The notes beneath the pieces were generated by a model that had not been told where the DNA came from, ran no database searches, and was given only the letters and a program-made list of their open reading frames with translations. From Companilactobacillus allii (GTDB taxonomy: Bacteria > Bacillota > Bacilli > Lactobacillales > Lactobacillaceae): a stretch of DNA of 64,000 nt. The stretch spans positions 1,230,053-1,294,052 of the forward strand of contig NZ_CP019323.1 of assembly GCF_001971585.1 (NCBI RefSeq). The letters are read 5' to 3'. Of the stretch, positions 1,100 through 4,772 are shown piece by piece. The translations under genes were made by a program, and so were the position numbers. Numbering within the stretch: position 1 is the first letter of the stretch; every line of letters begins with the position of its first letter.

Positions 1100-1123
1100 T
1101 AAAAAAGGAAGCCTAAACTTCCT
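1100..1123 (-). terminator. Terminator of the histidine kinase gene
   Basis: On the minus strand AGGAAG and CTTCCT form a short stem followed by a T run (plus-strand A run 1100-1106). The hairpin overlaps the stop codon of the kinase. Confidence 0.6.
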
Positions 1124-2462
1124 GATTTTGTAGCACGATAAGAGTCATCATAATGTAGTTGTTGACTATTTTGGTATCCATAAATAAATTAGATGAATTA
1201 TCAGTAATATTTGAGACATTAGCTAGACCGTATCCTTGATGGTCACTTTTAGTTGAATATCCAGTTTTGAATATCTGATTAATATTGATTGCATCAGCCA
1301 ATTGATTAGCAATAGTTATTTCAATAGTCTCTGAAGATTTCATGAAGGCACAGGTGAAGTCTTTTTTGTCGATAGTTTGTACGTATTCGATAGCATTATC
1401 AATGAGTATACCAACAATACGAATGATAGAAAGGTCATTTTCCTTAATTTCATAATCAGAATCGTTTAACTCAAAGTGGATATTGATTCCTTTGGACTTA
1501 GCAATGAAAAACTTTTGCGTTAAAAGACTTTGTAGCGGTTTGCTTTTGATGCTTTGTAATTCTCGCAATTTACTAGTTTGGACTATTTTAAAATTGGACT
1601 GTTGATTCATTAATTCATGGTAATATCGTTTTATTTCCTCTGAACTTTGACCATCGACAACTTGTCCCAATGAAAGTAGGATGTTTTGGAAGTCATGTTT
1701 GAACTTTCTTAGTTCTTCATACTGTTGTTGAGATCCAGTTAAATAATCATCTAATTCTTTGATTCTTTCGGTAGCCTCAACTGCTTCTTTTCGCATTGTA
1801 TATGATTGGATCGCAATGATGGTTTGCAAATAGGTGAACATTGTCATAAAGGTGAATGACAAGATCATGCTCATTTTAATTAAGGGGGTTACCTTTTGAA
1901 TATCACTGATAATAAGGATAGTCATGAATATCAACAATAATATAAATAACGATATAAAGATTCTTTTGCCCAATTGATAACGTAAGATATCATTTTGTAT
2001 CTGCATTATTTGTCGATCCAAGATATTGACGATTGAAACTAGTATGAATACAAGGATCAGATTTATAACTAAGACTAACGGCAAGGTGGTATTTTGAAAT
2101 TGACCTAAGTATATATCCCAATATCTGATGTGGAAGTAAACGATGAGGCTGATAATGTAGTTACTTAGATTGAATAATATCAGTTGAATATTCATTGCTA
2201 ATACAATGATGATTCCCTCGTTATAATTAAGACTATGTGGCTTATTTCTAAATATGTGAATAGCAATTAGAAATAATACAAATAATAATAAGAACAAAGC
2301 ATTCACGTAAAGCCCCAATAAAGCAAAGGCAAATGATAGGAAAAAGTCGTTAATTAAATAATAGTATTTGAACTTTTTAATGAAAAAATGGAGTAATTGT
2401 AACGTTACAAACAAAATGAAAAAGTTCTCTATTAGTTCTAAGTTGGTTTTGATATATGGCAT
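1113..2462 (-). CDS. AgrC/PlnB-type sensor histidine kinase (GHKL)
   Basis: 449-residue membrane sensor kinase. About the first 220 residues are a chain of hydrophobic helices (six or seven), as in peptide-pheromone receptors. A helical linker follows, then the phospho-acceptor box FKHDFQNILLSLGQ (His near residue 255), the N box DNAIEYV and the G box HQGYGLANV of a GHKL ATPase domain. It probably acts with the LytTR regulator encoded at 2974-3723 on the same strand, but the XRE gene lies between them in the opposite orientation. No AgrD/AgrB-like genes are next to it, so the ligand is unknown. No strong ribosome site precedes this ATG, so the exact start is uncertain. Confidence 0.85.
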   Translation of the reverse strand: MPYIKTNLELIENFFILFVTLQLLHFFIKKFKYYYLINDFFLSFAFALLGLYVNALFLLLFVLFLIAIHIFRNKPHSLNYNEGIIIVLAMNIQLILFNLSNYIISLIVYFHIRYWDIYLGQFQNTTLPLVLVINLILVFILVSIVNILDRQIMQIQNDILRYQLGKRIFISLFILLLIFMTILIISDIQKVTPLIKMSMILSFTFMTMFTYLQTIIAIQSYTMRKEAVEATERIKELDDYLTGSQQQYEELRKFKHDFQNILLSLGQVVDGQSSEEIKRYYHELMNQQSNFKIVQTSKLRELQSIKSKPLQSLLTQKFFIAKSKGINIHFELNDSDYEIKENDLSIIRIVGILIDNAIEYVQTIDKKDFTCAFMKSSETIEITIANQLADAININQIFKTGYSTKSDHQGYGLANVSNITDNSSNLFMDTKIVNNYIMMTLIVLQNQEV

Positions 2463-2585
2463 AAGATTTAAATGCTAGACCTATTTCTTTCCTATGATTT
2501 TAGTAAATAGTTCGAACGTAACTAAATTATTGTAGGGATATTTTACAACTAAAACAAGATATTAATAATTTTTGTCTAAGATCGT

Positions 2586-2616
2586 TACGTTTATAGGCTA
2601 TAATTTTACGTTTATA
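2586..2616 (+). promoter_or_regulatory. LytTR response-regulator operator: two direct repeats 21 bp apart
   Basis: TACGTTTATA occurs at 2586-2595 and again at 2607-2616, start-to-start 21 bp (two helical turns). This is the spacing and near-consensus sequence of AgrA/PlnC-type LytTR sites in lactobacilli. The right repeat ends 32 bp before a TAATAT -10 hexamer (2649-2654), matching the geometry of plantaricin promoters. A weaker copy, TACGTTTTAA, lies at 2660-2669. Confidence 0.75.
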
Positions 2617-2648
2617 AATTTTTCTCGCAGAGGGAAATAGTTATGAAA

Positions 2649-2654
2649 TAATAT
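2649..2654 (+). promoter_or_regulatory. -10 element of the XRE gene promoter
   Basis: TAATAT about 40 bp upstream of the XRE start with no good -35 hexamer, as expected for a promoter needing activation by a LytTR regulator bound at the 2586-2616 repeats. Confidence 0.5.
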
Positions 2655-2695
2655 AGGTATACGTTTTAATTAGAAGAATAGAATTGAGGTATTTC

Positions 2696-2935
2696 ATGTG
2701 TGAGGATATCCGTATTGGTGGAAACCTACAATTAGGAGACAATTTGAGAATTCTTCGTAAAGAGCGAAATCTTTCAGAACGTGAAGTTTCAAATATGCTG
2801 CATGTTGATATAACAACAATTTCAAAGTATGAACATAATACAAGAACGCCAGATATTTACACGATGATTAAATTCGCTGATGTTTACGATGTCAGTTTGG
2901 ACAAACTAGTAGGTAGAAAACCTAAAACAAAATAA
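2696..2935 (+). CDS. XRE-family (Cro/C1) helix-turn-helix regulator
   Basis: 79-residue DNA-binding protein consisting almost entirely of one HTH_3 domain: LGDNLRILRKERNLSEREV, then the recognition helix region VDITTISKYEHNTRTPD and the C-terminal helix VSLDKLVGRKP. I chose ATG 2696 because GAGG lies at the right distance in front of it; an upstream TTG (2684) has no ribosome site. The gene is inserted divergently between the response regulator and the kinase, and its promoter carries LytTR repeats, so it is probably a target of that two-component system. Confidence 0.85.
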   Translation: MCEDIRIGGNLQLGDNLRILRKERNLSEREVSNMLHVDITTISKYEHNTRTPDIYTMIKFADVYDVSLDKLVGRKPKTK

Positions 2936-2980
2936 ATAAAATAGGAAATCGCTTAATTGTGCGGTTTCCTATTTTATTTT
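2936..2980. terminator. Bidirectional terminator between the XRE gene and the response regulator
   Basis: ATAGGAAATCGC (2941-2952) pairs with GCGGTTTCCTAT (2961-2972), with A-rich and T-rich flanks on both sides, between two convergent genes. Confidence 0.8.
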
Positions 2981-3723
2981 AATTTTTTCTCTAGCGAGTT
3001 CATCAACTCACGACTCTTTCTAAATGAAACTTTACAAGTGGAGTGATCTATAAAGGTCAAGATTCGACTTTTACTGTCGTAAGCTTTGGCGTTGTCTAAA
3101 TTGACTAGGTAACTACGATCACAACGAAACAGATTTGGGTACTTAGTTTCTAGTGAATTAAGAGATTCCATGAATGATCCACGTTGATTCTTTGTAATAA
3201 ACGTTACTCGACCAGGGGAGGTCGTTTCGGTGAACAACATGATCACATCGTCCATTAGGACTGAAAAGAAGCGACTACCAATTTTGTAATTCAAAAGATT
3301 ACGAGAATGATGTACGAAGTTTTCAAAGTAATGTTGGGCTAGAGCAATGTCATTGTTGATACTTTTCTTGATAGAATCCATCCCCTTGTTCTTGATGATA
3401 TAATCCAGTGGCGCAATTCTTCTTTCAAGAGTTATCAAAGTTAGTTCATCATGAGTGGTGATAAAGACTATCTGTGCTAAAGGCATAGCTTGTTTTATCT
3501 TTTCAGCAGCCTCTAGACCAGCAATTTCATTAGCGGCTATTTCCATATCAAGAAAGAATAGTCCCTTTGTTTCATTTTTGCAGGAATTAAATAATTCTTC
3601 AGTTGTATCAGTGGCCAATTTCAACTCCATGTCAGAAGCGTTAATCATTATACTGTTATTTATAAATTCAGAGTAATTGTTTCTTTGGACCTCATCATCT
3701 TCCAACAAATAGATCGGTAACAT
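2974..3723 (-). CDS. AgrA/PlnC-type LytTR response regulator
   Basis: 249 residues. An N-terminal receiver domain has an acidic pocket (EDD at residues 8-10), phospho-acceptor Asp59 in FFLDMEIA and a conserved Lys in YIIKNKG. A C-terminal LytTR DNA-binding domain (about 140-245) includes FRCDRSYLVNLDNA and a basic KVSFRKSRELMNSLE end. The ATG is preceded by AGGAGGTG. It is the likely partner of the kinase at 1113-2462 and the likely binder of the 2586-2616 repeats. Confidence 0.88.
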   Translation of the reverse strand: MLPIYLLEDDEVQRNNYSEFINNSIMINASDMELKLATDTTEELFNSCKNETKGLFFLDMEIAANEIAGLEAAEKIKQAMPLAQIVFITTHDELTLITLERRIAPLDYIIKNKGMDSIKKSINNDIALAQHYFENFVHHSRNLLNYKIGSRFFSVLMDDVIMLFTETTSPGRVTFITKNQRGSFMESLNSLETKYPNLFRCDRSYLVNLDNAKAYDSKSRILTFIDHSTCKVSFRKSRELMNSLEKKLK

Positions 3724-3866
3724 TCTGGCACCTCCTGCTTAAGGCATATCTATAATAGACAATTGTATTCAAGCATAGAATTAAAAACAAGTTTGAATGC
3801 CATATACAGCAGGGAAAGTCAGCTATTTAAGGTATAAAATAACTCTTTTCAACTTGACAAAATCAG

Positions 3867-4772
3867 TTATCTAGTATCTTCTTGCGACTTCTTATTTGAC
3901 TTATCATTGGTATTATTAAGCTTATTTCCAATAATGTACTGGTGAAAAATCGAAATAAACTGATTATTAGCAATCATATCGGAGTGCTGAGCCTTACTAC
4001 CAGTAAGAGTTATGAGGGTGTAACGCTTGATTACTCCTTCATAAATATACTTACCTGCATCCACACTACCAATAGGGACGATACCGTCATCGGTATAGAG
4101 CTGTGTTCCAGCAATTGAGTAATATGTTAAGTTACTTGGCAATTTGGCCTTACTCTTAATAAAGTCGTTCAACATTTGGGTACGGTTGGAACTATTCTTC
4201 TCTTCAAAGTTATATGGAGAGCCGACTGTCAGTAGAGAATCAATGTTGATAGAGGTGTCGTCAAAGTAATGTTCAAGAAAATAAGTCCAGATCAAACCCC
4301 CATTAGAATGTCCAAAGGCATTGAAGGTGTTGAATCTGTAGCGTTCCTTTAGTTGATCAAAGGCAGTGTTGAACCATTTGGCTTGTTTCTTGATATTATC
4401 GTATCCATCTTTGTTATTAATGAATCCAACTACGATAAAGGGACTGTCGTCATTAGCACGAATAGAGCCCTTGTAAGTGATTTTACCGTTAGTTTGAACA
4501 GTTAGCTTCAATAGGCTGTGATGTTCCCCATATCGCTTGTTGATTGTTTTAACGAGATCGTCGAAGCGGTCTGCCGAAGCACTACTTCCTGGGATCATAA
4601 TAATAGGTGCCATTGGTGAATTATATCTACCTGCTAAGGTCGATACATTCTTCTTAGTCCAAATATATGAAGGTATTCCTAAGATAATCAAGATAAGTGA
4701 AAGGATGATTAGATATTTCAAAGATTTTTTTTGAATTGTTTTTTTATTTACACGTTTAGCTCTTTTCATCAT
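3867..4772 (-). CDS. Membrane-anchored alpha/beta hydrolase, DUF915 family
   Basis: About 301 residues. A basic N-terminus and one hydrophobic helix (about 17-37) anchor an extracytoplasmic alpha/beta hydrolase. The oxyanion region is MIPGSSASADRFDDLV, the nucleophile elbow FGHSNGG (Ser), the acid probably TDDGIVP and the His probably AQHSDMI. Substrate unknown; DUF915 proteins are widespread in lactobacilli. ATG 4772 is preferred over GTG 4781 because AAGGTGG stands at proper spacing. The start overlaps the 3' end of the EIIC-like gene, so the two are probably translationally coupled. Confidence 0.8.
   Translation of the reverse strand: MMKRAKRVNKKTIQKKSLKYLIILSLILIILGIPSYIWTKKNVSTLAGRYNSPMAPIIMIPGSSASADRFDDLVKTINKRYGEHHSLLKLTVQTNGKITYKGSIRANDDSPFIVVGFINNKDGYDNIKKQAKWFNTAFDQLKERYRFNTFNAFGHSNGGLIWTYFLEHYFDDTSINIDSLLTVGSPYNFEEKNSSNRTQMLNDFIKSKAKLPSNLTYYSIAGTQLYTDDGIVPIGSVDAGKYIYEGVIKRYTLITLTGSKAQHSDMIANNQFISIFHQYIIGNKLNNTNDKSNKKSQEDTR

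Follow-up and report, generated by a model that had tools for sequence, protein, structure and literature searches.

The window, by which we mean the whole 64,000-nt stretch of DNA analysed (G000:C1:1230053-1294052, from a genome of 2.53 Mb in two contigs), contains a gene for an XRE regulator situated between those for a response regulator and a histidine kinase, as a first-pass annotation of this DNA had it. The XRE gene (2696..2935, + strand) codes for a product of 79 aa with a single HTH_3 domain (Pfam HTH_3, E 1.7e-13 as scored on a longer frame that starts from 2684). The response regulator (2974..3723, - strand; 249 aa) consists of a receiver and a LytTR domain (Response_reg, E 7.6e-08; LytTR, E 8.7e-18), with PF00072 and PF04397 both above cut-off, and a terminator-like hairpin (2934..2979, no strand assigned; z -7.8) separates this gene from the convergent XRE gene. 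The AgrC/PlnB-like kinase (1113..2462, - strand; 449 aa) has a multi-helix membrane N-terminus and a GHKL domain; its AlphaFold model (mean pLDDT 68.8, pTM 0.47) served solely as a rough helix count.

Upstream of the XRE gene, the 10-mer TACGTTTATA occurs at 2586-2595 and again at 2607-2616, which confirms the repeat and the start-to-start distance of 21 bp noticed at first pass. Each copy includes a LytTR half-site, TACGTTTAT (2586..2594 and 2607..2615, + strand), the second situated 12 bp past the first. According to PMC2714321, the target of PlnC, located immediately before its promoters, consists of two 9-bp repeats of consensus TACGTTAAT separated by a 12-bp spacer; the repeats at the XRE promoter match this arrangement in both consensus and spacing, so the PlnC-type geometry proposed for them holds. 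As for the -10 box that had been placed 32 bp away, TAATAT does occur at that distance from the second 10-mer (2649-2654); a perfect TATAAT is absent from the XRE promoter region in the window, and a putative extended -10 (TGA-AATAAT, 2644..2652, + strand) has its hexamer 30 bp past the second 10-mer. A putative Shine-Dalgarno sequence, GAGG (2686..2689, + strand), precedes by 6 nt the ATG at 2696, which is more likely to be the start codon than the TTG at 2684 because relatives have the same arrangement of both elements. A putative kinase promoter (TTGTTT-17-TACAAT, 2529..2557, - strand) diverges from that of the XRE gene.

The pair of repeats lies in AT-rich intergenic DNA, where a fortuitous duplication might be suspected, and a third copy of TACGTTTATA does occur at 874-883, inside a small ORF; this copy is not kept in any of the four relatives with that ORF and is thus taken as chance. 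Nevertheless, the pair is the sole one in the window with up to three mismatches, against 0.01 expected and a single occurrence in 100 shuffles, and the same search over the whole genome returned two matches (this one, exact, and another with three mismatches) versus one in the reversed control. Its position in register is moreover conserved in 21 out of 21 loci, as described below, so that we regard a chance repeat as a practically negligible explanation.

The locus was compared across 36 Companilactobacillus genomes, own genome included; these genomes are related and hence non-independent samples, so that counts across them carry kinship. Orthologues of the XRE gene (E < 1e-27, with the next best match at 1.4e-14) are present in 21 of the 36, among them C. 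hulinensis (G012), C. nodensis (G024) and C. jidongensis (G014), and orthologues of the response regulator (at least 54% identity) in 20, counting the window's own. The discrepancy is due to G013, whose regulator probably falls in an assembly gap, because its contig ends 0.2 kb past the XRE gene and another contig of the same genome starts with DUF915. Identity to the window proteins is 70-90% for XRE (20 others), 55-84% for the regulator (19 others) and 36-71% for the kinase (20 others).

The first-pass annotation had set a comparison of homologous loci for missing repeats as a refuting test; one repeat pair was found in each of the 21 XRE loci, just upstream of the XRE gene and in line with it, in a search allowing at most one departure from a pattern that was widened after the promoters had been read. 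Half-site 1 reads WACGTTWAT at the same place in all 21 loci, and half-site 2 shows one departure from WACGTTNAT in G001, G010 and G011. The 12-bp spacer is identical in the 21 loci, although the pattern itself fixed it at 12; when half-site pairs 12-40 bp apart were sought on both strands of 334,012 bases of loci, 20 of the 22 found were at 21 bp, one was at 16 and one at 37. Additionally, the sequence TGAAATA (TAAAATA in one locus) starts 27-29 nt past half-site 2 in every one of the 21.

In the 15 genomes without the XRE gene, its orthologue, the regulator, the kinase and the repeat pair are all absent from the corresponding stretch, whereas the neighbouring DUF915-EIIC genes are retained in all 15 and TrmA in 14 (it was not seen in the fetched stretch of G021); G034 has a 34% XRE-domain match, which lies outside the block. 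These results come from searches of the cassette-free TrmA-DUF915 gaps (up to about 4 kb in some genomes) with the window proteins plus one short ORF, and window proteins also served to map the genes of the 20 relative loci. A functional link to the adjacent PTS EIIC and DUF915 hydrolase genes was considered and discarded: EIIC occurs in 36 of 36 genomes, and the adjacency says little because it is also found in the 15 genomes lacking the cassette. Six flanking proteins, each available from 30-35 of the 36 genomes, were used for a FastTree tree, which has several weak backbone nodes and groups the window genome with G012. On it, presence and absence of the unit require four changes, or seven when nodes below 0.9 are collapsed, versus a mean of 11.7 and a minimum of seven when the presence labels were shuffled on the full tree. 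Best supported is the loss in G034, whose sister is the carrier G023 (support 0.999). The parts of the unit therefore seem to have been kept or lost together in evolution. Beyond the genus, a profile of the XRE protein (cut at E 1e-16) found it in 14 of 378 genomes of the family, all of them Companilactobacillus (one of 40 genera), in a sample drawn evenly that holds fewer than all 21 carriers, and the DNA fetched for 17 regulator loci of other genera (L129-L134, L136-L146) contained no relative of XRE at E 1e-3.

The genome scan for the same pair that had been suggested at first pass identified 25 exact matches to WACGTTNAT-N12-WACGTTNAT in the 36 genomes, versus one in the reversed control. 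Eighteen of these belong to XRE promoters, the corresponding pairs in G001, G010 and G011 being one base off the pattern, and the remaining seven are in G000 (before a paralogous two-component system), G010, G011, G019 (two), G020 and G023. Thus, no exact pair besides that of XRE exists in 16 of the 21 carriers, the exceptions being G000, G010, G011, G020 and G023. Together with synteny, this supports the prediction that the output of the system would be a transcription factor. With up to two mismatches, the window's genome yields 26 pairs versus 58 in the reversed control, so weaker true sites are indistinguishable from noise and a regulon larger than XRE alone is possible.

The own genome also encodes a paralogue of the regulator (51% identity) whose promoter carries its own consensus pair, TACGTTAAT-N12-AACGTTAAT, which makes cross-talk possible. 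It could even be argued that such a paralogous, bacteriocin-type regulator controls the repeats and that the neighbouring two-component system acts elsewhere; yet this is very improbable, because four carriers (G002, G015, G016 and G032) have the local regulator as their single match at E 1e-3 and all four retain the repeats, and the repeats and this regulator are jointly missing from the 15 non-carriers. Directly observed are the repeats themselves and their conserved register, the association of the pair with the XRE promoter, and the fact that the parts occur, or are absent, jointly. Conserved promoter pairs, this joint distribution, the scarcity of other exact sites and the retention of repeats in carriers with a single match to this regulator at E 1e-3 suggest that activation of the XRE gene is most likely due to the LytTR regulator.

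The order of genes seen in the window is not the common one. In 16 of the 21 loci, kinase and regulator genes are adjacent and convergent with the XRE gene, whereas in G000, G012, G013, G014 and G024 the kinase is on the other side of XRE. The first-pass annotation took the XRE gene to have been inserted into the two-component system; this is not supported, given the uninterrupted kinase-regulator pair of the 16 loci. Only one clade, of five genomes, has the divided order, a state that changes once on the tree, which indicates that it was the kinase gene that moved. The regulator of the window is preceded by a putative promoter, TTGTTT-17-TACAAT (3762..3790, - strand), that resembles the kinase promoter of relatives with unmoved gene order and is the same in the four moved-clade loci with an assembled regulator (4/4). 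The presence of this kinase-like promoter suggests that the kinase gene once lay there and left that position. At its new position, the hexamers of the putative kinase promoter are the same in three of four relatives of the clade, the fourth having TTGTCA.

No repeats were found before the kinase or regulator genes in the 16 unmoved loci. In the five moved loci the repeat pair lies in the region common to the divergent kinase and XRE genes, so that the pair might also serve the kinase in those loci. The start of the kinase gene follows the arrangement TTGNNN-17-TACAAT-N6-ATG in all 16 unmoved loci (L067-L082), which suggests a leaderless kinase mRNA there; the arrangement is missing in the five moved kinases. 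In G016 (L072:8712-10224), the XRE and regulator genes are separated by two additional genes, whose products look by eye like a flavodoxin-like dehydrogenase and a MerR-like regulator, and XRE retains its repeats.

Kinases of the AgrC/PlnB type are generally regarded as receptors of peptide pheromones, in connection with bacteriocins or virulence. We weighed a diverged peptide quorum-sensing system, with the pheromone produced from another part of the genome and with a distant set of bacteriocin or competence genes under XRE control. In its favor, the kinase and the regulator match the AgrC and AgrA models (E 1.7e-33 and 8.7e-35), albeit under the cut-offs of these Staphylococcus-centred equivalog models (116 of 500 and 120 of 400 bits, respectively); the closest outside regulators found are from Lactiplantibacillus, Pediococcus and Paucilactobacillus, which we take to be PlnC-type; and the same repeats are situated near ORFs that look by eye like bacteriocin genes in G019 and G023. 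Nevertheless, AgrB (PF04647) was not found over cut-off in any of the 36 genomes, own one included (four had weak partial matches), nor in 14 control genomes, which leaves the sensitivity of this search uncertain. A C39 peptidase is present in 11 of the 36, comprising nine of the 21 carriers and two of the 15 others; it is absent in 12 carriers and lies in short frames (93 and 156 aa) in two, G000 and G030.

Within the window, we recognised no pheromone, exporter or bacteriocin genes beside the two-component system, and inspection by eye of ORFs of at least 20 aa at 770-1140, 2440-3000 and 3700-3900 revealed no AgrD-like or double-glycine peptides. This agrees with the first-pass observation that genes like agrB and agrD are not adjacent. 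The non-canonical or distant signal proposed at first pass is one possibility; a pheromone with another export route is a second. A small ORF beside TrmA was considered as a pheromone and rejected: seven of the 15 loci without the cassette also contain a related short membrane ORF, whose presence thus does not depend on the two-component system. A 65-aa ORF of the window matches this TrmA-adjacent ORF weakly (E 0.03 or worse).

Sequence variation along the kinase also bears on the nature of the signal. Mean identity is 50.9% for the sensor part (residues 1-215) versus 58.3% for the core. At core identities of 35-45%, the sensor parts are 37.0% identical (33 pairs) versus 21.6% (40 pairs) among 11 outside kinases, with a smaller gap at core identities of 45-55% (41.8%, 85 pairs, versus 33.8%, 7 pairs), in a comparison that sets orthologues against mixed systems and in which pairs are related. 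Because sensor identity exceeds that of the outside kinases at equal core identity, these results suggest that the kinase reads one conserved ligand rather than diversifying pheromones. With no AgrB match over cut-off and the patchy C39 exporter, they leave diverged peptide quorum sensing as a conceivable but rather doubtful explanation.

The XRE protein could be modeled as a helix-turn-helix fold of five helices (mean pLDDT of the five models 83.8, 82.7, 78.3, 53.8 and 51.6; fold taken from the first), like the DNA-binding domains of ImmR, SinR and P22 c2. The similarity is highest for the DNA-binding domain of ImmR (7t8i; TM 0.93 by target length, 31% identity, sequence match E 6.6e-09), and ImmR and a Listeria regulator are the closest solved sequences. 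The XRE protein shares the fold of this domain with ImmR, SinR, CylR2 and other small XRE proteins; unlike these, it has a single domain, without a partner domain, and its expression is apparently set by a two-component system.

This repressor-type fold would also suit a protein working mainly in feedback, whereby the regulator activates XRE and XRE in turn represses the kinase and regulator genes or its own promoter, in a self-limiting loop without outside targets. Two further features agree with feedback: wherever the regulator is assembled (20 loci), its gene and the XRE gene converge, and a dyad-like element extends from the -10 to the Shine-Dalgarno sequence of the XRE gene in several relatives, by eye. 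We nevertheless consider this unlikely, since no common operator emerged: the conserved leader word AAGAATTGAGGNA showed no consistent second site across the 36 genomes and is absent from several carriers, and the dyads noticed by eye in the leader and in the -35 region are not the same from clade to clade. Furthermore, conservation is higher for XRE (70-90%) than for the regulator (55-84%) or the kinase (36-71%), which would not be expected of a protein serving local self-control only. In the XRE leaders of L067-L082, also by eye, AATATT/AATGTT at the -10 tends to vary along with AATATT/AACATT near the start codon, like a dyad or hairpin spanning the leader.

Taken together, we consider it probable that kinase, LytTR regulator and adjacent XRE gene constitute a dedicated two-step signalling unit. 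The AgrC/PlnB-type membrane kinase would phosphorylate its LytTR response regulator, a dimer of which would then bind the two 9-bp direct repeats 21 bp apart and switch on transcription of the adjacent XRE gene; phosphorylation, binding and activation are predicted steps. The XRE product, as a small single-domain protein with a repressor-type fold, would pass the signal to targets of its own. From its sequence, the unit can be described as a genus-restricted, rewired variant of the PlnBC/AgrCA kind; what is new is the wiring, the parts being already known. A bolder reading, which we advance only tentatively, is that of a former bacteriocin-type quorum-sensing pair which has lost its pheromone, exporter and effectors and now serves one genus-specific transcription factor, with a non-pheromone, chemically conserved cue for the kinase and with XRE acting as a global second-tier switch in Companilactobacillus.

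A transcription factor below a LytTR regulator has a counterpart in streptococci, where the LytTR regulator of ComDE feeds a second-tier factor, ComX. In that system a known peptide is the signal and the second tier is a sigma factor, whereas here the second tier would be an XRE protein. The AgrBDCA system resembles the unit in the profiles of its kinase and regulator, although the window proteins score far below the AgrC and AgrA cut-offs and AgrB is missing over cut-off from the 36 genomes. The unit also resembles PlnABCD of Lactiplantibacillus plantarum, which likewise uses LytTR regulators (the activator PlnC and the repressor PlnD): in the 21 loci, repeats near TACGTTAAT have the same 12-bp spacer and the same place before a promoter as described in PMC2714321. 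However, PlnABCD controls several operons in L. plantarum, whereas 16 of 21 carriers lack an exact pair beyond that of XRE; it has repeats before its own regulatory operon, allowing autoregulation, unlike the two-component genes of the 16 unmoved loci; and it includes the pheromone, exporter and bacteriocin genes not recognised beside the two-component system of the window. In having one named target gene each, the LytTR-type systems BtsSR and YpdAB of enterobacteria are comparable, as described in PMC5552118; their targets are transporters and their kinases of LytS type, in contrast to the transcription-factor target and AgrC-like kinase found here.

Titles and abstract openings among the literature matches listed, mostly non-subscription papers, contained no description of a kinase-LytTR-XRE unit. 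The unit, compact and present in food-associated bacteria, offers a route to ask what AgrC/PlnB-type kinases sense beyond peptides and how signalling pairs come to be rewired, since it has an apparent one-gene output and no peptide machinery was recognised beside it. It also provides a clean promoter and an XRE regulator that has orthologues at one place in 21 of the genus's 36 genomes.

Other sequences resembling LytTR pairs were noted during the scans. A multi-copy terminator-like palindrome, near G000:C1 953218, 965733, 972132, 1195781, 1454269 and 2364787, mimics a degenerate pair, TTCGTGAAT-N12-TACGTTAAT; it accounts, at these six places, for seven of the 26 loose pairs in the window's genome, which we disregarded as noise. 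The paralogous kinase-regulator pair of the same genome (G000:C1:709138-711681; L032, L216) has consensus repeats of its own and is followed by a short frame with a partial C39 peptidase; it is apparently a decayed bacteriocin-type system. In G023, whose LytTR pair, like those of G019, has bacteriocin-like ORFs nearby, short ORFs with double-glycine-like leaders occur beside the pair on contig C11 (L159) with a C39 exporter close by, and this is likely an ordinary bacteriocin system.
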